From NCBI RefSeq assembly GCF_009908315.1, contig NZ_JAAATW010000001.1, positions 682,001-746,000 of the forward strand: a DNA stretch of 64,000 nt. The letters run 5' to 3'. Shown here piece after piece: positions 1-56,589 of this stretch. The translations under genes were made by a program, and so were the position numbers. Positions within the stretch are counted from its first letter, which is position 1. Every line of letters begins with the position of its first letter. Below the pieces are notes generated by a model. That model was not told where the DNA came from. It was given only the letters and a program-made list of their open reading frames with translations, and searched no databases. The stretch comes from Paragemmobacter ruber (GTDB lineage: Bacteria > Pseudomonadota > Alphaproteobacteria > Rhodobacterales > Rhodobacteraceae).

Positions 1-114
1 ATCCCCCAACCCGGCGTAACGCCTGTCTTGTACCAGTAATCCTTCAGTAACCAGTTCCATCAGGCGATGCCCCGGCAACGGACGGCATTTGTTTTGAGCG
101 ATCAGAAGGTTAAC

Positions 115-6435: not shown

Positions 6436-6450
6436 GACAGGACTAACCCG

Positions 6451-11049
<4,599 letters not shown>

Positions 11050-32293: not shown

Positions 32294-32615
32294 GCGGAAC
32301 CTTGCTGATTGATTCGCGCAAAAACCCCGCCCATCGCGGCGGAATTCGGCTTGCCAACAACATCTGCCCCTCCCGCAGCCAGATCGGCAACTGCCCGCCG
32401 AAGATTGAAAAACTGCAAGCCCAGACGGCAACTCTCCCTATGGTTGAAATTTGTGACGGCCATTTCTCCCTCTGGAAACCACGCTTTTCCCTTTGCCAAA
32501 AGGCCGCGGCACAGGCCGGTGCCGCAGTCATCCCCACCATTTTCGGCATGTCAGAAAAGGACAAGAACATCCGCCCATGTCAGATTCGACCTGACGGCGG
32601 GAAATCGGCTACAAC

Positions 32616-32632
32616 GTGGTTAACCAAGATTA
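32616..32632 (+). promoter_or_regulatory. GGTTAACC motif next to the glycosidase start
   Basis: TGGTTAACCAAGATTAC matches the core GTTAACCAA-N2-TTR of the motif at 30432. It lies 20 bases before the chosen start, overlapping the expected translation initiation region. Confidence 0.3.
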
Positions 32633-32652
32633 CCATGGCACAGGGTCAATTC

Positions 32653-38234: not shown

Positions 38235-39302
38235 CTACTCTGCCCCAAGCGTTTCTTCGGCCCAGCGCTGCAAAAGCCGCCTGCGCTTGGACTGGTCCAG
38301 ATAGACCAGAAGGCCGGGGCTGACCCCCACAGGCTGCAATTGCGGGCCGAGAATCGCCTGCATCATCCGGGCGCTGTTGGCATCCGCCACCTCCAGCGAC
38401 ACTGCCGGAAGGCGCAGCTTGCGCGCCAGCACCTCCTGCCCTTCCCGGCTCATCAGAAAGCCGAGGAAGGCCTCGCCCAGTTCGGGATTGCGCGCCGCCC
38501 GCGGCACCAGCGCGACGCGCGAGACGACCACCGTGTAATCCTTCAGCAGGACCAGGCCGATCTCGGGCCGCTGCCGCGCCTGATCGGCGGCATAGGACCC
38601 AAGGATGTTGTAGCCCAGCTTCAGGCGCCCATCGGCCACCCTGTCGATGATGTCCTGACTGGTGGGAAACACCTCCAGCCCCGCCCGCGTCATCGCCCGG
38701 ATCAGCGCCCAGATATCGCCGAACAGTTCCTCATCCCGCGCCAGAAACAGGTATCCCAGCGCCGACCGCGTGATGTCATAGGTCCCCACCGCACCGCCCG
38801 ATGCCGCAGGCTGGGCGCGCAGCCAATCCATCAGCGCCAGCCGCGATTGCGGCGGGCCGTCGGGAAAGCTGGGGCGGTGATAGACCAGCACCGCAGGCTC
38901 GAAGGTCAGCGCATAGGCCGTGTCCTGCCACTGCGCCCAATCCGGCCAGTCGCGCGCCGCAGGCGGGCGCGCAGCCTGTGCATAGCCGTCATTGGCAAGG
39001 CTCATCTGCAGGTCCATGCCCGACGAGAACACGAAATCCGCCGTCACGCCCGGCCCGTCCGTTTCGGCGCGCACGCGGTCGCGGATCTCGCCGGTCAGCA
39101 GATCCTCGTAACGCACGGCGACGTCGGGATAGTTTTCCTGAAAGGCCGCGATCATCGGTGCGGCAAGGCTTTCATCCAGCGTGGAGTAGACCGTCAGTTC
39201 CTGCCCGGTCCTGCCAGAAGGGGCATCGAACAGGAACACCTCGCCCAGCGCAGGCCACGCCGCGCCGATTAACCCCACAAGAAACAGAACACCCCCCCGC
39301 AT
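38235..39302 (-). CDS. Orphan periplasmic ABC-type substrate-binding protein
   Basis: A 355-residue binding protein of the iron(III)/thiamine type II fold (FbpA-like), with a signal peptide ending near WPALG (about 20). It shows ELTVYSTLDE, FVFSSGMDLQ and a C-terminal ALVPRAARNPELGEAFLGFLMS segment. No permease or ATPase for it is nearby. It diverges from the tctD/tctE two-component pair, a known arrangement in which a binding protein may feed the sensor kinase. The frame is open to 39917, but only the part from 39302 is homologous. The start codon choice is moderately sure. Confidence 0.8.
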   Translation of the reverse strand: MRGGVLFLVGLIGAAWPALGEVFLFDAPSGRTGQELTVYSTLDESLAAPMIAAFQENYPDVAVRYEDLLTGEIRDRVRAETDGPGVTADFVFSSGMDLQMSLANDGYAQAARPPAARDWPDWAQWQDTAYALTFEPAVLVYHRPSFPDGPPQSRLALMDWLRAQPAASGGAVGTYDITRSALGYLFLARDEELFGDIWALIRAMTRAGLEVFPTSQDIIDRVADGRLKLGYNILGSYAADQARQRPEIGLVLLKDYTVVVSRVALVPRAARNPELGEAFLGFLMSREGQEVLARKLRLPAVSLEVADANSARMMQAILGPQLQPVGVSPGLLVYLDQSKRRRLLQRWAEETLGAE

Positions 39303-39330
39303 CCCCGCAGCTTGCCCCAAGGCAGAGCGG

Positions 39331-39359
39331 TTCACAACGGCGCTGTTCGGCCCTAGTCT
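39331..39359 (+). promoter_or_regulatory. Possible tctDE promoter
   Basis: TTCACA and TAGTCT are separated by 17 bases, placing a start of transcription about 25 bases before the tctD ATG. The -10 box is weak. Confidence 0.3.
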
Positions 39360-39389
39360 GCGGCCCAGTTCCGGGTGACGGGAGGCCCC

Positions 39390-40064
39390 ATGCGCATCAT
39401 GCTTGTCGAAGATGACCGCCCCCTCGCCGAGGCGCTGACCACGCTGCTGGGCCAGTCTGGCTATGCCGTGGACACGGTGCATGACGGCGCCTCGGCCGAG
39501 GTTCTGGGTGCCTCGGAACGCTTCGACCTTGTGATCCTCGACCTCAACCTTCCCGAAAAAGACGGGCTGTCCGTGCTGCGCGCCATGCGCGCCCGGTCCG
39601 ACGATGCCGCCGTGATGATCCTGACCGCGCGCGGCGCGCCAGAGGAACGGGTGCGCGGCCTGAACCTTGGCGCGGATGACTATCTGACCAAGCCCTTCGA
39701 CGTGACGGAATTCGAAGCCCGCGTCCGCTCGCTCCTGCGCCGCAAGGCGGGGCTGCGCGCCTCGACGCTGACCGTGGGCGATGTGACCTTCGATCTGATC
39801 TCGCGCCGCCTGACCACGCCCGCAGGCGGCATCGACCTGCCCGCGCGCGAACTCGCGCTGCTGGAACTGCTGTTTACACGGGCGGGGCGCGTGGTCAGCA
39901 AGGAAACGATCGTGCAATCGCTGACGTCACTCGACGACAGCCTGTCCGACAATGCGATCGAACAGTATGTCTCGCGGCTGCGGCGGCGGCTCAGCCCGCA
40001 TGGCGTGGTGCTGCGCACGGCGCGGGGCATCGGCTATTACATCGACAAAGCCGCCAGCGCATGA
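39390..40064 (+). CDS. tctD: Response regulator, OmpR/TctD type
   Basis: A 224-residue two-component regulator. The receiver domain has the acidic pair in VEDDRP, the phosphoacceptor Asp51 (LILDLNLP) and the conserved lysine in YLTKPFD. The C-terminal half is an OmpR-type winged helix (LPARELALLELL ... SLSDNAIEQYVSRLRRRL). GGAGG stands directly before the ATG at 39390. It overlaps the sensor kinase by ATGA. Likely target: the tctCBA operon and the divergent binding protein. Confidence 0.92.
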   Translation: MRIMLVEDDRPLAEALTTLLGQSGYAVDTVHDGASAEVLGASERFDLVILDLNLPEKDGLSVLRAMRARSDDAAVMILTARGAPEERVRGLNLGADDYLTKPFDVTEFEARVRSLLRRKAGLRASTLTVGDVTFDLISRRLTTPAGGIDLPARELALLELLFTRAGRVVSKETIVQSLTSLDDSLSDNAIEQYVSRLRRRLSPHGVVLRTARGIGYYIDKAASA

Positions 40065-44025: not shown

Positions 44026-44946
44026 ATGCGCCCGCTCCGCGGCATAGCCCTGAAACTCGGCTCCGTCCTCGTCTTCATCGTCATGGTGTCGATGATCAAG
44101 GCCACGGCAGAGCATGTGCCTGCCGGGCAGGCCGTGTTCTTCCGGTCGGCCTTCGCGATCCCGGTGATCGTGGTTTGGCTGATGCTGACACGCGAATTGT
44201 CCACCGGCCTGCGCGCCAAAAGCCCGATGGGCCATGTCTGGCGCGGCTTTGCGGGCACTTGTGCCATGGGCCTTGGCTTTGCCGGGCTCGCCTATCTGCC
44301 GCTGCCCGAGGTGACGGCCATAGGCTATGCCGCACCCCTGCTGACCGTGATCTTCGCAGCGATGTTTCTGGGGGAAGACGTGCGCCTGTTCCGCCTGTCC
44401 TGCGTGGCCCTTGGCATGGCGGGGGTGCTGATCGTGCTTTCGCCCCGCCTGACGGTGCTGGACGGCACCGCCAGCCATGCCGAGGCGTTCGGCGCCATGC
44501 TGGTGCTGGGCGGGGCCGTCTTTGCCGCGCTGGCGCAGGTCTTCGTGCGCAAACTGGTGCAGACGGAACGGACACCGGCCATCGTGTTCTACTTCTCGCT
44601 CACCGCGACGGTGCTGTCCTTGGCGACGCTGCCTTTTGGCTGGGTCTGGCCCACACCCATGGAAACGTTGCTTTTGATCGGGGCGGGCATCCTGGGCGGA
44701 TTGGGGCAGATCCTGCTCACCTCCAGCTACCGCGAGGCGGATGCCTCGCTGGTGGCGCCCTTCGATTATGCCTCCATGCTGTTTGCGCTGGCCATCGGCT
44801 GGTTCATCTTCGCCGAAGTCCCCAGTCGGACCATGCTGATCGGCGCGGCCCTGATCATCTGCGCGGGCATCCTGATCATCTGGCGCGAACGGCGGCTGGG
44901 CAAGGATCGCGCCCAGCAGCGCAAGGTCACGACGCCGCAAGGATGA
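44026..44946 (+). CDS. DMT superfamily transporter with two EamA domains
   Basis: A 306-residue inner membrane protein with ten predicted helices in two EamA repeats; family signs are [10 protein letters not shown] in the first and [20 protein letters not shown] in the second. Such carriers export or exchange small metabolites and the substrate cannot be predicted. AGAGGTG precedes the ATG at 44026. The gene converges on the glycosyltransferase-like gene at 44969 with a 22-base gap. Confidence 0.9.
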
Positions 44947-44968
44947 TGCCCCGGCCTGTCGGTCCCGG

Positions 44969-46267
44969 TCAGCCCGCCGCACGCCGCGGGCTATCGGCCG
45001 CCTCGACCACCGACAGGATGCGCTCGGCCGCCACCCGCGCGCCCTGATGGCGCTGCATGGCCTGCGCATTGGTGGCCAGCCGCGCCCGCATCGGCGCGTC
45101 GGCCAGAAGGCCGGTGATGGCCTGCGCGAACTCGGCCTCGGTCCAGCGATAACGGTCCAGCGCCCGCCCGACGCCCGCCTCCACTGCGCGGCAGGCATTG
45201 TCGTGCCCGTCCCAGCAATAGGGCATCACCAGCGACGGCACCCCGAAATACAGCGCCTCGCAGAACGAGTTGTTGCCGCCGTGATGGATGAAAAGCTGCG
45301 CCTGCGCCACGACAGATGGCTGGGGAAACCATGGCGCGACCAGCACATTGTCGGGCACGGCGGTGTATTCATCGCTCCACGATCCGCCATTCACCACAAA
45401 CCGGCAGGGCAGTTCGGCAAAGACGTCGATCATCCGCCGCATCAGCCCCACATCCATCGCGCCGAGCGACCCGAAACTTGTCAGCACCAGCGGCGCGTCG
45501 TTGTGGCTGGCAAATCCGGGCGACTGCCAGGCCGCCTCTTGCCGCATGCAGCCATCCAGAAACACGAACCGCTCCGGATCGAGCGGCCGCATCCGCGCGC
45601 GGCGGATGATCTGGGGCGCAAGCATGAGGTTGAGCCAGGGCGAAGGGTCCAGAAACCGCCCAGGCGGCGGGGGGGCGATGCCACAGTCGGCCAGAAAGGC
45701 CGACAGGCGGCGATGGGCGGGCGCCGTAACCTCCGCATAGGCCTGTGCGAAATCGTCCCACTGATCGCGCCCCGCCTCACCCAGCCCCGACAGGTAGGGT
45801 GGCACCGCCGGATCAGGCAATTCCGTCTCGGCGCAGGAGATGACGCGGATCCACGGCACGCCCGCCGTCGCGATGGCGGGAAACATCACCACATTGTCCA
45901 AGACGATCCCATCGGGCCGCAGGCTGGCCAGCAACTGGCGCAGCGGCTGTTCCACCGCCATCGCCGTATCCACGATCGCATCCCATGTCGGGCCCACATA
46001 GCTGTGGAGTTGCGCGCGGGGGGTCTGGCGAAAGGCATCGCGGTGGCGGTTGATGAAATCGGTCCAATCCGTCGCCTGCCCCTCACCCGAAATGGCCAAC
46101 TGGTATTCGGCGAAGCCATATTCGGCAAAGACCCCGCTAAAGCCGGGATGGCAGATGAAGATGGGCCGCGCCCCCATCCGACGCAGTTCCTGCGCGATGC
46201 CCACGCAGTTCAGCGCCGCGCCGAAACTGGCCTCGGGGAAAAGGGCGATGGTCTTGCCTGCGGTCAT
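44969..46267 (-). CDS. GT1/MGT-like GT-B protein lacking the usual catalytic histidine
   Basis: A 432-residue protein with a recognisable UGT-type donor site near 320-370: APWFPQPSVVAQA, IHHGGNNSFCEALYFGVPSLVMPY and WDGHDN. In ordinary UGTs the N-terminal GHxxP loop supplies the catalytic His; here that place reads FPEASFGAALNCVGIAQ with no histidine. The paralogue at 51301 has the same change. It might transfer a sugar by another mechanism, or do another reaction on an activated sugar. Its ATG overlaps the stop of the GntR regulator (ATGA), tying it to the polyamine-type transport locus. Confidence 0.8.
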   Translation of the reverse strand: MTAGKTIALFPEASFGAALNCVGIAQELRRMGARPIFICHPGFSGVFAEYGFAEYQLAISGEGQATDWTDFINRHRDAFRQTPRAQLHSYVGPTWDAIVDTAMAVEQPLRQLLASLRPDGIVLDNVVMFPAIATAGVPWIRVISCAETELPDPAVPPYLSGLGEAGRDQWDDFAQAYAEVTAPAHRRLSAFLADCGIAPPPPGRFLDPSPWLNLMLAPQIIRRARMRPLDPERFVFLDGCMRQEAAWQSPGFASHNDAPLVLTSFGSLGAMDVGLMRRMIDVFAELPCRFVVNGGSWSDEYTAVPDNVLVAPWFPQPSVVAQAQLFIHHGGNNSFCEALYFGVPSLVMPYCWDGHDNACRAVEAGVGRALDRYRWTEAEFAQAITGLLADAPMRARLATNAQAMQRHQGARVAAERILSVVEAADSPRRAAG

Positions 46268-47205
46268 GCCGATCCTGCCTGCCGGGCCACGATCTTGAAG
46301 GCGGGCGGCACGCCGCGCCCCGCCAGACGTGGCCTTTGGGATTGTGACTGCTGGATGTGCACGCGCATCAGATCGGCGGCAAGCTGCATCTGACCCCGCT
46401 CGATCTGTTCCACGATCTGCAAGTGTTCCAGATTGGACTGCATCAGCCGCCAGGTCGAAACCGGGCCGCAGGGTGCCGCGCGGCGGCGGCGGTGGTGGCC
46501 CGCCAGGACCTCGGCCAGAAAGGGGTTGCCGCAGCCCTTGGCGACCAGCATGTGGAAATCGAAATCCGTCCGCTCGAACAGGCGGCGGTTGAAGCTGTCC
46601 TCCTCCATCCGCCGCAGGGTCAGCATGGCCTGACGCAGCGACAGGATCGCCGTCGCGTCGCGGCGAAAGCCCGGCATCGTCAGCGCCAGGGGTTCGGTCG
46701 CAAGCCGGAACTCATAGCTTGCCGCCGCCGCATCAGCACTGACCGCGAATTGCTTGAGCAGCCATTGCTGCCCCGCGCCCCGTTCCGCAAGCCCCTCTTC
46801 GCCAAGCCTTGCCAGCGCATTCTGCACCGAGGCCCGCGCCGCGCCATAGCGGCGCTGCAAGCTGGCCACGGTCTGCGCCTCTTCGATCCGCCCGGCGCCC
46901 AGATCGCGCAGGATCGCCGCATGCAGGCTGTCCTCCGCCGCCTCTGGCCCCGGCGGCACCAGCCCCGGCACCAGCGCCGCGTCGATGGCAAGGGACAGGC
47001 CACCTTCGGGATCGGGGGCGGCCACCCCCTGCTCCACCAGAACCAGAAGCGCCTTGCGGATCGGCGTGCGCGATACGTTGCACAGCGCGGCCAGCGCCTG
47101 TTCCACAAGCCGCTCCCCCGCCTTCATGTCGCGCTCCGTCGCAAGCTGAAGTATTTTTTGCGCCAACTCGACATGCCGAAGATACGCGCGCCCCTTGTCC
47201 GACAT
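46264..47205 (-). CDS. GntR family regulator with two winged-helix segments
   Basis: A 313-residue transcription factor. Residues about 10-70 form a typical GntR winged helix (AGERLVEQALAALCNVSRTPIRKAL). A second similar segment follows at about 90-150 (RIEEAQTVASLQRRYGAARASVQNALARLGEEGLAERG), before an FCD-like ligand domain with SYEFRLATEPLAL and FHMLVAKGCGNPFL. Two DNA-binding segments in one GntR chain are unusual. It diverges from the PotD-like gene, whose promoter it probably represses until a substrate binds. AAGGA is 7 bases before the ATG at 47205. Confidence 0.83.
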   Translation of the reverse strand: MSDKGRAYLRHVELAQKILQLATERDMKAGERLVEQALAALCNVSRTPIRKALLVLVEQGVAAPDPEGGLSLAIDAALVPGLVPPGPEAAEDSLHAAILRDLGAGRIEEAQTVASLQRRYGAARASVQNALARLGEEGLAERGAGQQWLLKQFAVSADAAAASYEFRLATEPLALTMPGFRRDATAILSLRQAMLTLRRMEEDSFNRRLFERTDFDFHMLVAKGCGNPFLAEVLAGHHRRRRAAPCGPVSTWRLMQSNLEHLQIVEQIERGQMQLAADLMRVHIQQSQSQRPRLAGRGVPPAFKIVARQAGSA

Positions 47206-47307
47206 CGGCAGATCCTTCCCGTTCCCGCCAAGTTTACCCAGAAATCGGCCTGATACCAGCGGATATCGCCCATCTGCAGGAATCTTGCAGGGCAACCGAT
47301 TCAACAG

Positions 47308-47334
47308 TTGACGCATTTTTTTCGAAAATAATAC
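47308..47334 (+). promoter_or_regulatory. Promoter of the transport operon with TTTTCGAAAA palindrome
   Basis: TTGACG (47308-47313) and TAATAC (47329-47334) are 15 bases apart; a shifted ATACAG gives 17. The 10-bp palindrome TTTTCGAAAA (47319-47328) lies between the boxes, where a bound GntR dimer would block RNA polymerase. The start codon is 70 bases downstream. Confidence 0.45.
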
Positions 47335-47403
47335 AGTTTGCGCACAGACCGCACAAAGCGGCGACCCGGCCAAGAGCCGACCACCAACAGAAGGAGCATC
47401 GCC

Positions 47404-48468
47404 GTGACCCAGAGGATTACCCCTAGCCTGCCACCCCTTGCCCCCGCGCTGGCGGCCATCGCGCTGATCGCGACCGCCCCGGCCACGCTGGCGGCGGATC
47501 TCGTCATCTCGAACTGGGATGGCTACATGGCCCCCGACATCGCCGAAACCTTCAAGGCCGCAACCGGGCTGGAGGTGGAAATCGTCAACCACGCCACCAA
47601 CGAAGAAATCATGGGCAAGCTGATGGCCAGTCAGGGCGCGGGCTATGACGTGGTCTTTGTGTCTTCGCCCTTTGCCGAGATCCTGAACAAGCAGGGCCTG
47701 CTTGCCCCCATCGACCATGCGGCGGTGCCCAACATCGCCAATCTCTACCCCGAGGCGGCGGCGTTGGCCTATGACCCCGGTGCCACCTTCGCGGTCCCTT
47801 ATGCCTGGGGGACGACGGGGCTGTGCTACCGCTCCGATCTGGTGGAAGGCACGCCCGACAGCTGGTCGGCGCTGCTGCAGCCTGCGGATGCGCTGAAGGG
47901 CAAGGTCACCATGCTGGCCACCGACCGCTGGCTGATGGCGGCGGGCCTGCTGGCGCAGGGGTCTTCGGTCAATGAAGCCGATCAGGCCAAGATCGACGCC
48001 GCCCGCGACCTGCTGATCGAGGCGAAGAAATCCCTCCTCGCCTATGACGACACAACCTTCTATGCCAAGCTCGTCTCGGGCGAGGCGTCGCTGGTGCATG
48101 CCTGGGATGGCTGGTGCAATTACGGCATCGCCGAAAACGCCGACATCCGTTTTGCCGTGCCGAAGGAAGGATCCGACCTCTGGGTGGATACGATGGTCGT
48201 GATGGCGAATGGCGAGAACCGCGAGAACGCGATGAAGTTTCTGAACTTCATCCTCGATGCCGGCAACCACGCCTGGGCGGCGCAGAACATCCTGTACAAG
48301 GTGCCGAACAAAGCCGCGATGGAAAGCCTTGATCCCGCGCTGTTGGAGCAGTTCCCGAATATGGCAATCACCCCGGCAGAGCTGGCGGGGTACGAGCTCA
48401 TGCGCGATCTGGGCGATGCCCAACCCGCCTTCTCCCGCGCGGTGAGCGAGATCAAGGCCGCGAACTGA
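47404..48468 (+). CDS. Periplasmic binding protein, PotD/spermidine-putrescine type
   Basis: A 354-residue binding protein with a signal peptide ending near TLAA (about 31). SNWDGYMAPDIAETF, YAWGTTGLCYRSD and VHAWDGWCNYG are typical of PotD/PotF-like receptors for polyamines and related amines. The exact ligand residues cannot be assigned by eye. The start is a GTG with AGAAGGAG 7 bases upstream. It is the first gene of an eight-gene unit and is followed by a strong hairpin before the permease genes, which may keep the binding protein message more abundant. Confidence 0.9.
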   Translation: MTQRITPSLPPLAPALAAIALIATAPATLAADLVISNWDGYMAPDIAETFKAATGLEVEIVNHATNEEIMGKLMASQGAGYDVVFVSSPFAEILNKQGLLAPIDHAAVPNIANLYPEAAALAYDPGATFAVPYAWGTTGLCYRSDLVEGTPDSWSALLQPADALKGKVTMLATDRWLMAAGLLAQGSSVNEADQAKIDAARDLLIEAKKSLLAYDDTTFYAKLVSGEASLVHAWDGWCNYGIAENADIRFAVPKEGSDLWVDTMVVMANGENRENAMKFLNFILDAGNHAWAAQNILYKVPNKAAMESLDPALLEQFPNMAITPAELAGYELMRDLGDAQPAFSRAVSEIKAAN

Positions 48469-48487
48469 CACCCATGCCCTAGGACCG

Positions 48488-48512
48488 GCGGGGGGGACCA
48501 AGTCCCCCCCGC
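48488..48512 (+). other. G-run hairpin between binding protein and permease genes
   Basis: A perfect 11-bp stem, GCGGGGGGGAC and its complement, with a CAA loop. It follows the binding protein stop by 19 bases and has no T-run, so an mRNA-stabilising or attenuating role inside the operon is likelier than full termination. A related hairpin lies at 54889-54914. Confidence 0.7.
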
Positions 48513-48576
48513 ACCCCCCCACCCTCCCCCTTACCCACCGCAACCCCTTGCCGCATGCCGCGCGACCGGAGAAGCC

Positions 48577-49449
48577 TTGCCCGCCTTCCTTCGCAGACCA
48601 GACCCCCGCGCCCTGCCAGCCCTGCTCTGGCTCGTGCTGTTCATGGTCGTGCCGTGCCTGCTGCTTTTTGCCTATGCATTCTTTGAACGCGGCACATGGG
48701 GCGGGATCGTCTACACCTTCACGCTTGGCAACTTCGCCCGCGTGTTCGACCCCCTCTATGCGGGCGTCTTCCTGACATCCGCCCGCATCGCCGCAACGGC
48801 CACAGCGATCGCCCTGCTGATCGCCTACCCGGCGGCCTATGCCATCAGCCGCGCCCCGCGCCGCCGCCAGCCGATCCTTCTGTTCTTCGCCGTCCTGCCG
48901 TTCTGGAGCAACTACCTGATCCGCACCTATGCCTGGATCGTGCTTCTGAACCGTGAAGGCCTGATTAATAGCCTGCTCACCAGCGCAGGCTACACGGGCG
49001 AGCCCCTGTCGATGCTCTACACCGAAGGCGCGGTGATCGTGGGGCTGGTCTACAACTACCTGCCCTTCGTCATCCTTGCGATCTATTCCAGCCTGTCGCG
49101 CCTTGATCCGCAACTGGCCGAGGCGTCGCGCGACCTTGGCGCCGGGCCGGTGCGCACCTTCCTGCGGGTGACATTGCCCATGACGCTGCCGGGCGTGGCG
49201 GCCGGGGGCGTGTTCATCTTCGTCCTCTCCATCGGCAACTTCGTCACCCCGGCGCTGCTGGGGGGCGGGCGGTTCCAGATGATCGGCAACCTTGTCTATG
49301 ACCAGTTCCTGACCGCCAATGACTGGCCCTTCGGCGCGGCGCTGGGGATGATCCTCATCCTTCTGATGCTCCTCCTTCTGACCATTCAGGCCCGGCTGAC
49401 GGACCGCGCCGCGGGCACCCGCCCGCCCGCGCGCGAGGAGGCGGCATGA
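48577..49449 (+). CDS. ABC importer permease, PotB-like
   Basis: A 290-residue inner membrane protein with six helices and the EAA loop EASRDLGAGPVRTFLRVTLP, which contacts the ATPase. It starts at a TTG with GGAG 5 bases upstream; the next in-frame ATG (48643) would cut into the first helix. It forms the translocation pore with the PotC-like protein, whose gene overlaps it by ATGA. Confidence 0.9.
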   Translation: MPAFLRRPDPRALPALLWLVLFMVVPCLLLFAYAFFERGTWGGIVYTFTLGNFARVFDPLYAGVFLTSARIAATATAIALLIAYPAAYAISRAPRRRQPILLFFAVLPFWSNYLIRTYAWIVLLNREGLINSLLTSAGYTGEPLSMLYTEGAVIVGLVYNYLPFVILAIYSSLSRLDPQLAEASRDLGAGPVRTFLRVTLPMTLPGVAAGGVFIFVLSIGNFVTPALLGGGRFQMIGNLVYDQFLTANDWPFGAALGMILILLMLLLLTIQARLTDRAAGTRPPAREEAA

Positions 49450-50225
49450 AACCGCATCGCTGGGCCGGTCGCACGATCCTGATCCTTGTCTTCGGGTTTC
49501 TCTACCTGCCCATCGCGGTGCTGGTTGGCCTTTCCTTCAACGCCTCTGGCCTGCCCACGGTTTGGTCGGGCTTCACATTGCAATGGTACGGCGCGCTGGC
49601 CAGCAACAGCGACATTCTGGGCGCGGCCTCCAACACCCTGATCGTGGCTGCCTTTGCCACGCTGATCTCCACCATCCTTGGCACGCTTCTGGCGCTGGGG
49701 CTGGAAAACCGCCGCCGCAACGGGACGGTGGTCGAGGCGCTGGTCTTCGCGCCCATGGTGATCCCGGATATCGTGCTGGCGGTGGGGTTGTTGTCCTTTT
49801 TCTCGCGCCTCGGGCTGCCCCTTGGCCTGCACACGATCGTGGTCAGCCATGTGATCTTCTGCCTTGCCTTCGTCTGCTCCATCGTCCGCGCCCGGCTGAA
49901 GCATTTCGACCATTCCATCGTCGAGGCGTCGCGCGATCTGGGCGCCTCGGGCTGGACGACGTTCTGGCGCGTCACCTGCCCCGTCCTTCTGCCCGCGATC
50001 ATCGCCGGGGCACTGTTGGCCTTCACCCTGTCCATCGACGAATTCATCATCGCCTTCTTCACGGCGGGCGCAGGGCGATCGTCGATCACGCTGCCCATGC
50101 AGATCTATTCGATGATCCGCTTCGGCATCACGCCGGAAATCAACGCCCTCGCCACCCTCGTCATGGGCGTCAGCGCCACCGCCCTGATCCTGTCGCAATG
50201 GCTTAACAAGGATACGTTGCGATGA
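49446..50225 (+). CDS. ABC importer permease, PotC-like
   Basis: A 259-residue permease with six helices and the EAA loop EASRDLGASGWTTFWRVTCP. FTLSIDEFIIAFFTAG is a hallmark of PotC-type subunits of spermidine/putrescine importers. Start and stop both overlap neighbouring genes by 4 bases, so PotB, PotC and PotA homologues are translated in a coupled series. Confidence 0.92.
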   Translation: MKPHRWAGRTILILVFGFLYLPIAVLVGLSFNASGLPTVWSGFTLQWYGALASNSDILGAASNTLIVAAFATLISTILGTLLALGLENRRRNGTVVEALVFAPMVIPDIVLAVGLLSFFSRLGLPLGLHTIVVSHVIFCLAFVCSIVRARLKHFDHSIVEASRDLGASGWTTFWRVTCPVLLPAIIAGALLAFTLSIDEFIIAFFTAGAGRSSITLPMQIYSMIRFGITPEINALATLVMGVSATALILSQWLNKDTLR

Positions 50226-51271
50226 CCGCCGCAGCTGACCGCTTCCTCGCCCTCGAAGGGCTGACCAAGGATTTCGGGGCCACCCGCGCCGTGGACGGCA
50301 TCTCGCTCGATCTGCGGCGGAACGAATTCTTCGCCCTGCTCGGCCCTTCCGGCTGCGGCAAATCCACCCTGCTGCGGATGCTGGCGGGGTTCGAGGCGCC
50401 GACCGAAGGCCGCATCCTGCTGGACGGGCAGGACATCACCGCGCTGAAACCCGAACGCCGCCCGCTGAACCTGATGTTCCAATCCTATGCGCTGTTCCCG
50501 CACATGACGGTGGCGCGCAACATCGCCTACGGGCTGGAGATGGAGCGTCTTGCCAAGCCAGAGATCGCCGCGCGCGTCGATGAGATCATGGCGGTGACCG
50601 ACCTCGCCCCCTTCGCCGACCGCAAGCCGGATCAACTGTCGGGCGGCCAGAAGCAGCGCGTGGCCCTAGCCCGCGCCCTGGTGAAACGGCCGCGCGTGCT
50701 GCTCCTGGACGAACCCTTGGGCGCGCTGGACCGCAAGCTGCGCGAAAGGATGCAGCTGGAACTGAAACGCCTGCAGCATGAGGTGGGGATCACCTTCGTC
50801 ATCGTCACCCATGATCAGGAAGAGGCGCTGGTGATGGCCGACCGCATTGCCATCCTGCGCGACGGGCGGCTTCTGCAATGCGGCACGCCGGAAGATGTCT
50901 ACCAACGGCCCGCCGACCGGTTCGTTGCGAATTTCATCGGCACGATGAACTTCGTCCCCGGCGTGATTGACGCGGGCGCCCGCTTCACCGCCCCTGCGAT
51001 CGACCTGGCCGCACCGGGCGCCCCGCCCGGGCGTGCCGTCCTCGCCATCCGGCCCGAGGATGTGGCGCTGGCCGAACCGGGCGCGGGCATCCCCGCCACC
51101 TTGCGCGACATCGCCTATCACGGCTTGGACCGCGTGCTGCATGTCACCCTGTCCGCCTGCGGCACCCCGCTGCAACTGCGCATCCCTGCCCGTGCCGACC
51201 TCACCCCCGCCGTGGGCGGCACGCTGCACATCGCCCTGCCCCCCGACCGCTGCACCTTCTTTCCCGACTGA
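50222..51271 (+). CDS. ABC importer ATPase, PotA-like
   Basis: A 349-residue ATP-binding subunit: Walker A GPSGCGKST near residue 41, Q-loop QSYALFPHM, signature LSGGQKQRVALARAL, Walker B VLLLDEPLGALD and the switch histidine in VTHDQEEAL. A C-terminal TOBE domain (about 270-349) is present, as in PotA and other carbohydrate/polyamine-type ATPases. It energises the two permeases encoded immediately upstream. Confidence 0.94.
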   Translation: MTAAADRFLALEGLTKDFGATRAVDGISLDLRRNEFFALLGPSGCGKSTLLRMLAGFEAPTEGRILLDGQDITALKPERRPLNLMFQSYALFPHMTVARNIAYGLEMERLAKPEIAARVDEIMAVTDLAPFADRKPDQLSGGQKQRVALARALVKRPRVLLLDEPLGALDRKLRERMQLELKRLQHEVGITFVIVTHDQEEALVMADRIAILRDGRLLQCGTPEDVYQRPADRFVANFIGTMNFVPGVIDAGARFTAPAIDLAAPGAPPGRAVLAIRPEDVALAEPGAGIPATLRDIAYHGLDRVLHVTLSACGTPLQLRIPARADLTPAVGGTLHIALPPDRCTFFPD

Positions 51272-51300
51272 CCCGATCCTGATCCGCAAAAGGAGCCACC

Positions 51301-52593
51301 ATGCCAAAGACCATCGCCTTCTTCCCCGAAGCGGCCTTCGGCCCCGCGCTGAACTCTGTCGGCATCGCGCAGGCGGTGCAGGCCTTGGGCCACAAGGCCG
51401 TGTTCCTGTCCGATCCGGGGTTTCTGTCTGTCTACGAAGGCTATGGGTTCGAAGCCCATCCCGTGAACCTGTCCGAACCCATGCCGCCCGAACAGATGGC
51501 CAAGTTCTGGGAGGATTTCATCAACGGCCACATCCCGAACTTCCGCAAATCGCCCTATGACCAGATCGACAATTACGTTCTGGATTGCTGGACCGCGATC
51601 GTGGAAAGCGCGCGCTGGGCGCAAAAGGACCTGCCCGCCGTGCTCGACCGGATCAAGCCCGACATGATCTGCGTGGACAATGTGATCCTGTTCCCGGCAA
51701 TCAAGCAATTCGGCAAACCCTGGGTGCGGATCATCTCCTGTTCCGAGAACGAGATCGAGGATGAGGCAATCCCTCCCCACCTGTCGGGCTGCAAGGCCGC
51801 GGATCACGCCTGCCACGCCGCCTATCGCGCGCGCTTCAACGCCGTGATCAAGCCGCTGCATGACCAGTTCAACGCCTTCCTCGCCGAAAATGGCGAAGCC
51901 GCCTATCCGCTGGGCCAGTTCTTCGAGGCGTCGCCCTTCATGAACCTGCTCCTCTACCCGGAACCGGTGAAATTCACCCGCAGCGAGCCGCTGAACCCCG
52001 CGCAGTTCCAGTATCTGGAGGGCTGCGTCCGCAAGGAAAAACCCTATGAGATGCCCGCCTTCGCCGCCCATGGTGACAAGCCGCTGATCTATGTCTCCTT
52101 CGGCAGCCTTGGCGCGGGCGATACGGACCTGCTCAAGCGCATCATCGCCGCCATCGGCAAGATGCCCTATCGCGCGCTGGTGAACGTGGGCGATTACTTG
52201 GGCGAATACAGCGACCTGCCGCCCAACGTGGTGATCGACAGCTGGTTCCCCCAGCCTTCGGTCATCCCTATGGTGGATGCTGTCATCCATCACGGCGGCA
52301 ACAACAGCTTTACCGAGTGCCTCTATTTCGGAAAGCCTGCGATCATCATGCCCTATGTCTGGGACGGGCATGACAACGCCACCCGCGTCGATGAAACCGG
52401 CCACGGCTTCCACCTGCACCGCTATGACTGGACCGATGCCGACCTTGCCGCGAAACTGCAGGCCTGCCTGACCGACCCCGCCATGAAGGCGCGGCTGGCC
52501 GCCACCTCGGCCCATATGCAATCGCGCAACGGCCAGCAGAAGGCCGCCGCCATCCTTGATCAGATCGTCACAACCGGGGCCTTCCATGCCTGA
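51301..52593 (+). CDS. GT1/MGT-like GT-B protein, paralogue of the 44969 gene
   Basis: A 430-residue protein similar over its whole length to the product of 44969-46267. The donor-site region has DSWFPQPSVIPMV, IHHGGNNSFTECLYFGKPAIIMPY and WDGHDN. The N-terminal loop reads FPEAAFGPALNSVGIAQ, again without the catalytic histidine of classical UGTs. A strong AAAGGAG precedes the ATG, 29 bases after the ATPase stop, and the cupin gene overlaps its end by 8 bases. Encoding a GT-B protein inside an importer operon suggests it acts on the imported compound. Confidence 0.82.
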   Translation: MPKTIAFFPEAAFGPALNSVGIAQAVQALGHKAVFLSDPGFLSVYEGYGFEAHPVNLSEPMPPEQMAKFWEDFINGHIPNFRKSPYDQIDNYVLDCWTAIVESARWAQKDLPAVLDRIKPDMICVDNVILFPAIKQFGKPWVRIISCSENEIEDEAIPPHLSGCKAADHACHAAYRARFNAVIKPLHDQFNAFLAENGEAAYPLGQFFEASPFMNLLLYPEPVKFTRSEPLNPAQFQYLEGCVRKEKPYEMPAFAAHGDKPLIYVSFGSLGAGDTDLLKRIIAAIGKMPYRALVNVGDYLGEYSDLPPNVVIDSWFPQPSVIPMVDAVIHHGGNNSFTECLYFGKPAIIMPYVWDGHDNATRVDETGHGFHLHRYDWTDADLAAKLQACLTDPAMKARLAATSAHMQSRNGQQKAAAILDQIVTTGAFHA

Positions 52594-52948
52594 CAGCCTG
52601 AAATCATCCGCCCCGCATATCCATGGGGCCACCACATTCTCCGATCTTGCCGATTGGGGTGCACAGCCCGATTGCCTTGAAGGCCAATCCCATTCCACCG
52701 GGCGGCTTCTGTTCAAGGGGCCGGGGAACCAGCCCGAATGCGGCATCTGGGTCTGCACCCCGGGCCGCTGGCGCCTGTCCATCCCGCGCGACGAATTCTG
52801 CCATTTCGTCGCCGGGCGGGCCACTTACCGCTCTGACACGGGCGAGGTGATCGAGATCACGCCCGGCACCGCCGTCCTGTTCCCCGCTGGCTGGACCGGC
52901 GAATGCACCGTGCATGACACGATGCGCAACATCTATCTGCTGGCCTGA
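52586..52948 (+). CDS. Cupin-domain protein, DUF861/Cupin_3 type
   Basis: A 120-residue single cupin. The core IPRDEFCHFVAGRATY, then EVIEITPGTAVLFPAGWTGECTVHDT, follows the EutQ/ureidoglycine-aminohydrolase-like pattern, with candidate metal ligands in DEFCHF and the later His. It may be a small isomerase, lyase or binding protein for a pathway intermediate. The ATG at 52586 lies inside the preceding gene's end. A second, similar cupin follows 38 bases later. Confidence 0.83.
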   Translation: MPDSLKSSAPHIHGATTFSDLADWGAQPDCLEGQSHSTGRLLFKGPGNQPECGIWVCTPGRWRLSIPRDEFCHFVAGRATYRSDTGEVIEITPGTAVLFPAGWTGECTVHDTMRNIYLLA

Positions 52949-52986
52949 CCGACCCGGTCACCAGCCCCAACACGGAAAGAAGAACC

Positions 52987-53334
52987 ATGACCGCCACACC
53001 GCTGATGCGCAAACCGCTGGAACAGACGGAACTGAAGGATTGGGGCGTGATCCCCACCATGATCGAAGGCGAAAGCCGCACCTCCGGCCTTGTCATCCAC
53101 AAGGGGCCGGACGGACAATCCGAATGTGGCCTGTGGGTCTGCACGCCGGGCAAATGGGAATGTCACGTCACGCGTGACGAATTCTGCCACTTCCTTCAGG
53201 GCCGCTGCACCTATGTCCACGAAAGCGGCGAGGTGATCGAGATCACGCCCGACACCGCCGCCTTCTTCCCGCAGGACTGGAAGGGGGTCTGCACCGTGCA
53301 TGAGACGATCAAGAAGGTCTACATGATCCGCTGA
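52987..53334 (+). CDS. Cupin-domain protein, DUF861/Cupin_3 type (second copy)
   Basis: A 115-residue paralogue of the preceding cupin: same layout (LKDWGVIPTMIEGES, SECGLWVCTPGKW, TRDEFCHFLQGRCTY, EVIEITPDTAAFFPQDWKG). The two genes probably arose by tandem duplication and may form a hetero-oligomer. GAAAGAAG precedes the ATG. Function is unknown beyond the fold; it lies between the GT1-like gene and the aldehyde dehydrogenase. Confidence 0.84.
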   Translation: MTATPLMRKPLEQTELKDWGVIPTMIEGESRTSGLVIHKGPDGQSECGLWVCTPGKWECHVTRDEFCHFLQGRCTYVHESGEVIEITPDTAAFFPQDWKGVCTVHETIKKVYMIR

Positions 53335-53373
53335 CGCCCCACCTTCCGTCACAATACCAAGGACCGCCGGACG

Positions 53374-54882
53374 ATGCCCTTCGACCTGAACCAGCCCTGT
53401 CACTTCCTGCAGGGCGGCTACATGCCCCTGTCCGGGCCACCCCGCCCGGTGATCGACCCCGCCACGCTGGCCACCGTCGGCCAGATCGCCGACAGCACGG
53501 GGGCCGAGATCGACCAGGCGCTCGCCGCCGCGACGGCGGCGCAGCGCCACTGGGCGCGGCTTGATGCCAAGACCCGCGCCACGGCGCTGCACCGCGTGGC
53601 CGCCCGGATCGAGGCGACCGACATGCGCTTTTGTGCCGAAACCATGTCGCGCGAGATGGGCAAACCCTACCCCGAAGCCATCGGCGAGGTCGCCAACTGC
53701 GCGGGCGCCTTCCGCTATTTTGCCGAGATGGCCCGTGATGACGGGGGCAAGGTCGCAGGCACCACACAGGCGGGGTCCTTCCAGTTCGCGCGGTATGAAC
53801 CCTTGGGACTGTCCGTCCACATCATGCCGTTCAACTTCCCCATCCTTCTGATGTGCTGGACGGTGGCCGCCTCGCTTGCCGCCGGAAATGGCTGCATCAT
53901 CAAGCCCGCGCCTGCCACCACCCTATCCACGCTCATCTTCATGGAGGTGTTCGCCGACCTGCCCCGCGGCCTTGTCGCCTGCCTGCCCGGCGGGGCGGAT
54001 TGCGCGCAGGCGCTGATCAAGTCGCCCCGCACCCATGCCGTGGCCTTCACCGGATCGATCGCCGCCGCGCGCCACGTGGCCATGGCGGCAGCGGGCGAGA
54101 TGAAACCGGCCGTGATCGAGGCCGGGGGATCGGACCCGATGATCATTACGCGCCATGCCCCCCTCGACGTGGCCGCTGCCGGCGCCGTGACGGCCGCCTT
54201 CCACATGTCGGGGCAGGTCTGCACCTCGGCCGAGCGGTTCTTTGTCGAAGACGCGATCCATGACGATTTCGTTGCCCGCTTCGCGCGGGAAACCGCGCGT
54301 CTGCGCATCGGCCATGGCCTGAGCCGGGCCGAGATCGGGCCGCTCGTTTCAGAGGCGGCAAGGGACAAGGTCATCCGTCTGGTGGAAGACGCCCGCGCCA
54401 AGGGCGCCACCGTCATCACCGGGGGCCGCATCCCGCCCGACCAGCCCGTGGGTTGGTTCTACGAACCCACGATCCTGACGGGCTGCACCCCCGACATGGA
54501 TATCCTGCGCGAGGAATGTTTCGGCCCCGTCGCCGCCATCTGCCGCGTGCCGGATTTCGACACGGCCATCACGATGGCGAACGCGTCGGATTTCGGCCTT
54601 GGCGCGTCGATCTTCACCACCGCGCTGGACGAGGCGATGGACGCCGCCGAACGGCTGGAGGCGGGGATGGTCTGGGTCAACAACCCGCTGATCGACAATG
54701 ACGCCCTGCCCTTCGGCGGGTGGAAGAAATCCGGGATCGGGCGCGAGCTGTCGCGCCTCGGGCTGGACACGTTCCGCCGATCCAAGATGGTGGTCATCGA
54801 CCACAAACCCACGATCCAGGGGTGGTGGTACCCCTATCCCGACGACTGGTTCCACGATTCCGTCGGGCGCAGCCATGTCTGA
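53374..54882 (+). CDS. NAD(P)-dependent aldehyde dehydrogenase
   Basis: A 502-residue ALDH of the succinate-semialdehyde/aminobutyraldehyde group. The oxyanion asparagine is in MPFNFP, the general base is Glu249 (IEAGGSD) and the nucleophile Cys283 (GQVCTSAE); GWKKSGIGRE near the C-terminus is typical. It oxidises an aldehyde to an acid, as expected at the end of amine breakdown, though no amine oxidase or transaminase is seen nearby. AAGGA lies 10 bases before the ATG; an ATG at 53422 is possible. It is the last gene of the unit. Confidence 0.9.
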   Translation: MPFDLNQPCHFLQGGYMPLSGPPRPVIDPATLATVGQIADSTGAEIDQALAAATAAQRHWARLDAKTRATALHRVAARIEATDMRFCAETMSREMGKPYPEAIGEVANCAGAFRYFAEMARDDGGKVAGTTQAGSFQFARYEPLGLSVHIMPFNFPILLMCWTVAASLAAGNGCIIKPAPATTLSTLIFMEVFADLPRGLVACLPGGADCAQALIKSPRTHAVAFTGSIAAARHVAMAAAGEMKPAVIEAGGSDPMIITRHAPLDVAAAGAVTAAFHMSGQVCTSAERFFVEDAIHDDFVARFARETARLRIGHGLSRAEIGPLVSEAARDKVIRLVEDARAKGATVITGGRIPPDQPVGWFYEPTILTGCTPDMDILREECFGPVAAICRVPDFDTAITMANASDFGLGASIFTTALDEAMDAAERLEAGMVWVNNPLIDNDALPFGGWKKSGIGRELSRLGLDTFRRSKMVVIDHKPTIQGWWYPYPDDWFHDSVGRSHV

Positions 54883-54888
54883 ATGGCG

Positions 54889-54914
54889 GCGGGGGGGCGC
54901 AAGCGCCCCCCCGC
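54889..54914. terminator. G-run hairpin between convergent aldehyde dehydrogenase and ettA
   Basis: GCGGGGGGGCGC pairs perfectly with GCGCCCCCCCGC around an AA loop, giving a 12-bp stem 6 bases after the dehydrogenase stop and 19 from the ettA stop. No T-run follows, but place and strength suit a two-way terminator. The right arm is followed by ACCCCCCC, as at 48488. Confidence 0.6.
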
Positions 54915-54933
54915 ACCCCCCCGGCCCTTCGGA

Positions 54934-56589
54934 TCAGCGGGTGAACTTCTTGTACTTCACCCGCTTCGGCTCTACCGAATCCGGGCCGAGGCGGCGGATC
55001 TTGTCTTCCTCGTAATCTTGGAAATTGCCTTCGAACCATTCCACATGGGCATCGCCTTCGAAGGCGAGGATATGGGTGCAAAGCCGGTCAAGGAAGAAAC
55101 GGTCGTGGCTGATGATCACCGCGCAGCCCGCGAATTCCTCGATCGCCGCTTCCAGCGCCTGCAGCGTTTCCACGTCCAGATCGTTGGTCGGTTCGTCCAG
55201 CAGCAGGACGTTGCCGCCGGATTTCAAGAGCTTGGCCATATGCACCCGGTTGCGCTCCCCGCCCGACAGGATGCCCACCTTCTTCTGCTGGTCTGATCCC
55301 TTGAAGTTGAAAGAGGAACAATAAGCGCGAGAGTTCACCTCGGCATCGCCCAGAACCACGATATCCAGCGCGTCGGTGATCTCTTCCCAGACGTTCTTGT
55401 TGGGGTCCAGCGCATCGCGCGACTGGTCCACATAGGACAGCTGCACCGTATCGCCCAGCGTGATCGTCCCGCTGTCGGGCTTTTCCTGCCCGGTGATCAT
55501 CTTCATCAGCGTGGATTTCCCCGCGCCGTTCGGCCCGATCACGCCCACGATCCCGCCGGGGGGCAACGAGAAGCTGAGGTTCTCGATCAGCTGCTTGTCG
55601 CCCATCGCCTTGGACACGTTCTCGAACTCGATGACCTTCGATCCAAGGCGCGGACCGTGCGGGATGATGATCTGGGCCTTGCCCACCAGTTCCTTGACCG
55701 ATTCATCCGCCATCTTCTCATAGGCCTGGATACGGGCCTTGGATTTGGCCTGCCGCGCCTTGGCGCCCGCGCGGATCCATTCCAGTTCCTTTTCCAGAAC
55801 CTTCTGCTTGGCCTTGTCCTCGCGCGCTTCCTGCGCCAACCGCTTGGCCTTGGCATCCAGCCACGACGAATAGTTGCCCTCATGCGGGATGCCGCGCCCG
55901 CGTTCCAGTTCCAGGATCCAGGTCGTGATGTCGTCCAGGAAATAGCGGTCGTGGGTGACCGTCAGGATCGTGCCCTTGTATTCGATCAGGTGCTTTTGCA
56001 GCCAGGCGATGGTTTCGGCATCAAGGTGGTTCGTCGGTTCGTCGAGCAGCAGCATGTCGGGCGCCTCAAGCAGCAGCTTGCACAGCGCCACGCGGCGGCG
56101 TTCCCCGCCCGACAGGGTTTCGACATTCGCATCATCGGGCGGGCAGCGGAGCGCCTCCATCGCGACGTCGATCTGGCTGTCGAGATCCCAGAGGTTTTCG
56201 GCGTCGATCTCATCCTGCAGACGGGCCATCTCTTCGGCGGTCTCGTCCGAATAGTTCATGGCCAGTTCGTTGTAGCGGTCGAGCTTGGCCTGCTTTTCGG
56301 CAACCCCCAGCTTGACGTTCTCGCGCACGGTCAGGTTCGGGTCGAGGTGCGGCTCCTGCGGCAGATAGCCGACCTTGGCGCCTTTGGCGGCCCAAGCCTC
56401 ACCCTGAAAATCCTTGTCCCAGCCGGCCATCACGCGCAGCAGAGTAGATTTCCCCGCCCCGTTCACCCCAACCACGCCGATCTTGACGCCGGGCAGAAAG
56501 TTCAGGCGGATGTTTTCAAACACCTTCTTGCCGCCGGGATAGGTCTTTGACACGCCATCCATGTGATAGACGTATTGATACGAGGCCAT
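54934..56589 (-). CDS. ettA: Energy-dependent translational throttle protein EttA (ABC-F)
   Basis: A 551-residue cytoplasmic ABC-F ATPase, close to the 555 of E. coli EttA. It binds the ribosomal E site and gates the first elongation steps by energy state. Two ATPase domains are seen, Walker A GVNGAGKST near 40 and GPNGAGKST near 350, with LSGGERRR and LSGGERNR signatures, and between them a charged helical linker (about 240-320) that contacts the P-site tRNA. There are no membrane segments. AGGAG lies 8 bases before the ATG at 56589; the frame upstream is not homologous. Confidence 0.95.
   Translation of the reverse strand: MASYQYVYHMDGVSKTYPGGKKVFENIRLNFLPGVKIGVVGVNGAGKSTLLRVMAGWDKDFQGEAWAAKGAKVGYLPQEPHLDPNLTVRENVKLGVAEKQAKLDRYNELAMNYSDETAEEMARLQDEIDAENLWDLDSQIDVAMEALRCPPDDANVETLSGGERRRVALCKLLLEAPDMLLLDEPTNHLDAETIAWLQKHLIEYKGTILTVTHDRYFLDDITTWILELERGRGIPHEGNYSSWLDAKAKRLAQEAREDKAKQKVLEKELEWIRAGAKARQAKSKARIQAYEKMADESVKELVGKAQIIIPHGPRLGSKVIEFENVSKAMGDKQLIENLSFSLPPGGIVGVIGPNGAGKSTLMKMITGQEKPDSGTITLGDTVQLSYVDQSRDALDPNKNVWEEITDALDIVVLGDAEVNSRAYCSSFNFKGSDQQKKVGILSGGERNRVHMAKLLKSGGNVLLLDEPTNDLDVETLQALEAAIEEFAGCAVIISHDRFFLDRLCTHILAFEGDAHVEWFEGNFQDYEEDKIRRLGPDSVEPKRVKYKKFTR

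Follow-up and report, generated by a model that had tools for sequence, protein, structure and literature searches.

Our data support a ten-gene unit in Paragemmobacter ruber that joins a PotABCD-type importer, with all four parts present, to two GT-B proteins, two cupins and an aldehyde dehydrogenase (ALDH). The unit fills positions 44969 to 54882 of the 64,000-nucleotide stretch analyzed here (the window), with GTa and a GntR/FCD regulator running leftward and PotD, PotB, PotC, PotA, GTb, two Cupin_3 proteins and ALDH running rightward. A preliminary description of this DNA had already taken these genes as one unit of this composition, and the open reading frames, the protein families and an empty site in congeners all agree with it. 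We propose, at somewhat less than even confidence, that the unit serves to break down a single, specific cationic compound (an amine, most likely) and that a sugar would act in this process as a temporary handle, later to be salvaged ("cryptic glycosylation"). The features are as follows.

44945 to 54915: the whole unit, its bounds being those of the empty site of congeners
44969 to 46267, minus strand: GTa, an accessory GT1-like GT-B protein of 432 amino acids
46264 to 47205, minus strand: regulator of 313 amino acids with GntR and FCD domains
47206 to 47403: divergent intergenic region with a putative sigma70-like TTGACG/TAATAC pair, spotted by eye
47404 to 48468, plus strand: PotD-type solute-binding protein (SBP_bac_8); probable start GTG at 47404, frame open from 47338
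48577 to 49449, plus strand: PotB-type permease (BPD_transp_1)
49446 to 50225, plus strand: PotC-type permease (BPD_transp_1)
50222 to 51271, plus strand: PotA-type ATPase (ABC_tran and TOBE_2; TIGR01187 at 360.0 bits, cut-off 355.6)
51301 to 52593, plus strand: GTb, a GT1-like GT-B protein of 430 amino acids
52586 to 52948, plus strand: Cup1 (Cupin_3), ATG at 52586
52987 to 53334, plus strand: Cup2 (Cupin_3)
53374 to 54882, plus strand: ALDH (Pfam Aldedh)
54889 to 54914: terminator-like perfect inverted repeat (12 bp) that follows ALDH and marks the right edge of the unit

The pairs GTa/GntR, PotB/PotC, PotC/PotA and GTb/Cup1 overlap, and the remaining rightward gaps are short. The G+C content inside the unit (0.656) is much like that outside it (0.658 and 0.647). 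Of the four importer proteins, only PotA passes a cut-off among the NCBIfam models listed (TIGR01187); ALDH stays below that of every one of the 25 models listed for it, and neither Cup1 nor Cup2 has an NCBIfam match.

Recurrence and boundaries of the unit

Among the 112 loci compared, GTb is the most constant gene (111 loci, which were found through GTb), followed by Cup2 (102), ALDH and PotD (92 each, PotD at an identity of at least 45%), Cup1 (88) and GTa (78, likewise at an identity of at least 45%). GTa, GTb, PotD, Cup2 and ALDH are all present in 74 of the 112 loci. This five-gene set, together with an empty site in congeners that fits both ends of the unit, argues for an association beyond chance. 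The public-genome scan gave 575 confirmed matches, and use of the best 80 genome loci makes the set lean to close relatives; it also contains repeats (L019 and L035 are from one species, L131 and L065 probably from one genome). Gene order is the same in Rhizobiales, Rhodobacterales and the family of genome G200, which belongs to the Pseudomonadota outside Alphaproteobacteria. Positive genomes numbered 7 among 148 sampled relatives (window genome included) and 8 among 398 from the phylum as a whole. For G200, the figures were 20 of 248 in its family and 2 of 274 in its class; in the order to which genome G126 belongs, all 17 sampled genomes were positive. The archaeal and actinobacterial branches rest on plasmid records. 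Two haloarchaeal plasmids carry genes for IclR, GT, cupin, ALDH, a ROK kinase and a phosphohexomutase; two of three actinobacterial records have PotDBCA next to a GT with an identity of about 38%, and the third does not.

Smaller and larger gene sets were also seen. L071, L096 and L104 have GTb and Cup2 with no transporter or ALDH match, and such a minimal pair of GT and cupin may serve an internal substrate. L096 and L104 have a gene for a protein of 555 amino acids upstream, which in L096 contains beta-lactamase-hydrolase-like phosphatase and pyridine-nucleotide reductase domains. A more divergent third cupin, with up to 25 copies over all loci surveyed, adjoins Cup1 and Cup2, usually between them, in many Rhizobiales (L027, L031, L051, L095 and others); in this survey, matches with a stop were dropped and every match below 55% was counted as "Cup3."

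The bounds of the unit are given by its congeners. No GTb was found in the 18 congeners listed, and the right flank is present in all 18 (in one only in part), that is, in all 19 genus members. In five of the 18 (L198, L201, L203, L204, and L207), the flanks lie only 13 to 44 bp apart; the left flank stops at window base 44942 to 44944 and the right flank starts at 54915 to 54938, which fits both ends of the unit. For the remaining 13, the fetched stretch yielded no left flank. Each of the ten proteins has its best match in a Rhizobiales locus (73 to 94%, versus 35 to 84% in three same-family genomes, matches with a coverage of 80% or less being dropped). Under this filter Cup1 was left with no same-family match; its values are 84% to Rhizobiales versus 67 to 73% within the family. 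Because all ten resemble the copies of Rhizobiales more than those of the three same-family genomes, the unit probably arrived by transfer. The neighboring EamA exporter was excluded as a member, since relatives without the unit still have it in the flank. Two genes that flank the cluster in many Rhizobiales, ALDH2 and the saccharopine-dehydrogenase-like SDH, were rejected as pathway members; the window copy is without both, and no SDH match was found in the window genome at 1e-10. Since the unit is complete here in their absence, the ten genes look like a self-contained module.

The GT-B subfamily and the PotD pocket

GTa and GTb match EryCIII-like_C, UDPGT and Glyco_tran_28_C above the Pfam cut-offs (UDPGT at 40.4 and 64.9 bits, cut-off 19.5). 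The predicted structure of GTb (pLDDT 91.5) has the GT-B fold and is closest in the PDB to 7lvy, the spider-mite UGT203A2 (TM 0.90), to which GTb also scores 179 bits by sequence. Macrolide resistance was rejected as a role, with TIGR01426 at 118.1 and 108.4 bits against a cut-off of 260. From an alignment of 188 sequences, limited to GT frames of 380 amino acids or more, the GT-B proteins look like one subfamily in which the nucleotide-sugar side is kept and the catalytic side rebuilt. HHGGNN, Gln318, Glu339 and Asp355, which we take to be the nucleotide-sugar side of GT1, are retained in 185 to 188 of the 188, a C-terminal conservation that (Gly356 included) is partly selected, as the scan picked loci by [VF]IHHGGNN or [IV][ML]PY[VC]WDG. 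Where GT1 proteins have a His behind the first strand, presumably the catalytic residue and a His in 7lvy, Pro is present in 110 and Ala in 78 sequences, and His in none. The donor-site Gln of the DQ motif is replaced by Gly in 185; it is kept only in three actinobacterial proteins (L023, L025, and L026), in which the His is lost, and the His loss may therefore predate the Gln loss. Identical in all 188 are Glu10, Asn18, Asp126, Asn127, Cys147, Glu151, Gln318, His331, Asn334, Asn335, Glu339, Asp355, Asp358, and Asn359. The residue pattern, at the recounted positions, stands when the set is thinned at 80% identity to 48 sequences, and in 42 GT rows from outside the pattern scan these positions are kept in 39 to 42, Gly356 is kept in 39, and the His is absent from all 42. 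Loss of the His could mean that an amine acceptor is handled by Glu10, that other chemistry takes place, or that glycosyl transfer is of a new type. Mite UGTs are discussed as gained from bacteria in passages of one paper (PMC4652392), and the bacterial GT-B subfamily may lie near their donor.

For the binding pocket of the importer, 85 cluster PotDs were aligned to PotD of E. coli; 16 of 100 PotD-like proteins had an identity below 45% and were dropped as other transporters. W60, Y63, T195, R197, W198, W256, D257, W259, D284, and Y320 are identical in 85 of 85, two actinobacterial proteins included. In E. coli PotD, the polyamine ligands are, as we assume, the acids E36, D168, E171, and D257 and the aromatics W34, Y37, W229, W255, and Y293. 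The aromatic positions W34, Y37, W229, and Y293 are retained in all 85 cluster proteins and W255 in 84. Of the acids, only D257 is retained; E36 is replaced by Gly or Ala, D168 by Thr and E171 by Trp in every one, so that the full set of polyamine ligands is not present. Because the pocket is near-invariant from Proteobacteria to Actinobacteria, one shared ligand is indicated, and the natural reading of the alignment is a single conserved cationic ligand, perhaps not classically a polyamine.

The proposed pathway and its rivals

A gamma-glutamyl ligase and an amine oxidase had been reported as missing, which holds for the window, whereas some relatives carry both beside cluster genes. A GS-like ligase (at least 65%) is present in 21 of the 112 loci, 19 of which also have a DAO-family FAD oxidase (at least 85%). 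In 19 Mesorhizobium-type loci, ligase and oxidase follow GTa; in L070 and L079, the ligase follows ALDH. Another DAO oxidase adjoins cluster genes in L125, L165, and L173 (in L130 as a partial frame), and an aldehyde:ferredoxin oxidoreductase adjoins GTb in L172, where neither ALDH nor a cupin was found in the 12-kb stretch. The presence of these genes in relatives favors an amine substrate and an aldehyde intermediate. Naming the oxidase from genomic DAOs was given up, since there are too many per genome; the window genome has one match, at 32%.

Sugar-handling genes in relatives are a second line of evidence. An AmgK-like kinase is encoded in 11 of the 92 loci that have GTb, Cup2 and ALDH, in 11 of 11 between Cup2 and ALDH and on the same strand. 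In each of the six tested genomes that have a cluster AmgK, another, separate AmgK is encoded elsewhere, and the other six tested genomes have a single copy; the window genome is one of these, its copy lying outside the unit. In the AmgK tree, the cluster copies are all on one side of a branch with a support of 91/90. In the haloarchaeal loci, the genes just 3' of ALDH encode a ROK kinase, whose best model is a glucokinase and which is read from the opposite strand, and a GlmM-like phosphohexomutase. An aldose 1-epimerase is encoded inside one operon (L061); a second match (L054; 31%) lies far from the cluster and was not counted. Since relatives thus have two unrelated routes from hexose to hexose-1-phosphate, the gene content suggests that sugar is set free and finds its way back into the nucleotide-sugar pool.

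In our model, PotD and PotABC would import the compound, and GTb, with a nucleotide sugar as donor, would attach a hexosyl group to it, thereby protecting or activating it, while GTa may help or serve a second site. An amine- or alcohol-oxidizing step would then give an aldehyde; the enzyme would be encoded outside the unit and might resemble the DAO-type oxidase found near cluster genes in some relatives. ALDH would turn the aldehyde into the acid, a Cupin_3 protein would release the sugar, and the hexose would be converted to hexose-1-phosphate by the AmgK-like kinase (in haloarchaea by the ROK kinase and the mutase), ready to become a nucleotide sugar. The unit, its recurrence, the PotD pocket, the GT-B subfamily with its altered active site and the kinase associations can be read from the sequences; the substrate, the sugar and every reaction are what we infer from them. 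Of the sequence of import, sugar modification and oxidation of an amine-containing compound that had been suggested before, the amine is favored by ligase and DAO oxidases and the sugar step indirectly by the kinases; the active site of the GT-B proteins is altered. That the unit stands for a new class of catabolic pathway, with sugar as a reusable handle, a noncanonical GT-B protein without the usual base, an oxidation, a cupin deglycosylase and a dedicated C1 kinase, we regard as rather doubtful.

Several observations weigh against the proposed pathway. With the catalytic His lost from 188 of 188 and the donor Gln from 185 of 188 GT-B proteins, transfer by the usual GT1 mechanism is doubtful. 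An amine-oxidizing gene is absent from the unit, and sugar release by these Cupin_3 proteins is a guess. The two AmgK-like kinases tested scored 246 and 180 bits to the AmgK models, below the cut-off of 500; only 11 of 92 loci have such a kinase, the family of G200 accounts for five of these, and the cluster copies seem to form a single lineage rather than to reflect repeated recruitment. The evidence from ROK kinase and mutase comes from two plasmids, and neither protein reaches its NCBIfam cut-off. A nucleotidyltransferase was not found by a crude motif scan that had no positive control. The haloarchaeal loci hold only distant relatives of PotD (25 to 31%). Nine of the 112 loci have GT and cupin without PotD or ALDH; unrelated neighbors of these genes had been named beforehand as grounds for abandoning the idea, and these loci are a partial case. 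Another nine are without a cupin match; the actinobacterial and Pseudomonas plasmid records make up four of these, and several are cut by contig ends. GT plus cupin is likely the enzymatic core, and loci with partial gene sets weigh against strict unity. Plain polyamine import, an earlier alternative, was set aside, short of exclusion, with three of the four acidic ligands of E. coli PotD replaced; the neighboring acids D61 (73 of 85), D196 (83 of 85), and D257 (85 of 85) could compensate, and a polyamine is possible.

The sugar kinases and the aldose epimerase of relatives fit release of a sugar as well as its recycling. The compound might therefore be imported already glycosylated, with GT-B proteins and cupins freeing the sugar, the kinases catabolizing it and ALDH acting on the aglycone. 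The loss of three polyamine acids from PotD would suit such a ligand; however, the GT-B proteins would need to run in reverse, and the ROK kinase with its mutase and the anomeric kinase point to hexose-1-phosphate, toward a nucleotide sugar, and we consider this explanation improbable. We give the same low weight to the idea that the GT-B proteins are not glycosyltransferases at all and that their rebuilt site (Glu10, Asn18, Asp126-Asn127, Glu151, and Trp354-Asp355-Gly356) runs another nucleotide-sugar-linked or a nucleotide-free reaction on the imported compound. The loss of His and Gln together with new invariant acids, in the 188 sequences as in the 48 thinned ones, is what such a change would look like, but the nucleotide-sugar side is retained and sugar kinases co-occur.

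The nearest solved relatives of GTb, the mite UGTs, are discussed as detoxifying in parts of PMC4652392, in keeping with the earlier alternative, in which an amine is taken up and glycosylated so that it can be stored or detoxified, with ALDH and the cupins handling a side product. This seems quite improbable to us: the separate cluster AmgK, the GS-like ligase and the DAO oxidase of relatives look catabolic, and there is no exporter among the gene families that occur in more than 20 loci. Catabolism of an amine with a salvaged sugar is the reading that we tentatively prefer. It ties a widespread operon to a concrete hypothesis, namely, that bacteria attach a sugar to a substrate while breaking it down and then reclaim the sugar. 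It also defines a GT-B subfamily whose active site is rebuilt and whose chemistry would be of interest whatever the outcome, and the near-invariant PotD pocket, shared from Proteobacteria to Actinobacteria, poses a testable ligand question.

The rest of the window and known systems

Apart from the unit, the left edge of the window (67 to 11049) holds a hybrid PKS/NRPS-like cluster with two very long genes. One product, a polyketide synthase of 2122 amino acids, has ketosynthase, acyltransferase, ketoreductase, dehydratase, carrier, and thioesterase domains; the other, of 1532 amino acids, has formyltransferase, AMP-binding, luciferase-like monooxygenase, and carrier domains. Two long frames at 32302 to 34656 (784 amino acids) and 38235 to 39917 (560 amino acids) have no Pfam match at 1e-10 and may be shadow frames.

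The locus had been called undescribed, and searches aimed at it or at its pathway in the open-licence literature of PubMed Central, judged by titles and abstracts, gave no description. Its parts do resemble known systems. The gamma-glutamylputrescine (Puu) pathway has a gamma-glutamyl ligase, a DAO oxidase, an ALDH and a class-I GATase. ALDH is shared with the unit, and GS-like ligase and DAO oxidase with some relatives, but the unit itself is without GS, DAO and class-I GATase, and hence without the Puu set, and has two GT-B proteins and cupins instead. In the AmgK/MurU salvage of cell-wall sugars, an anomeric sugar kinase feeds a nucleotide sugar. Such a kinase is also found in the cluster of some relatives, although as a second, separate AmgK-like lineage, and it is absent from the window unit. 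The cupins resemble EutQ-like proteins in belonging to Pfam Cupin_3, a family that we take to be akin to ureidoglycine aminohydrolase, but differ in that neither matches an NCBIfam model. With the GT1 UDP-glycosyltransferases, of which spider-mite UGT203A2 (7lvy) and UGT202A2 are the nearest solved, GTa and GTb share the GT-B fold and the C-terminal nucleotide-sugar motif; they differ by Pro or Ala in place of the His, by Gly in place of the DQ Gln (185 of 188) and by their place in an operon with an importer and ALDH. The cryptic glycosylations that we found in the literature are biosynthetic. As passages of one paper describe it, a sugar is added and then removed in nicotine biosynthesis to steer the chemistry (PMC13184244). 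That glucosylation belongs to a plant and ends with removal by a beta-glucosidase, whereas the pathway proposed here would be catabolic and would salvage its sugar.

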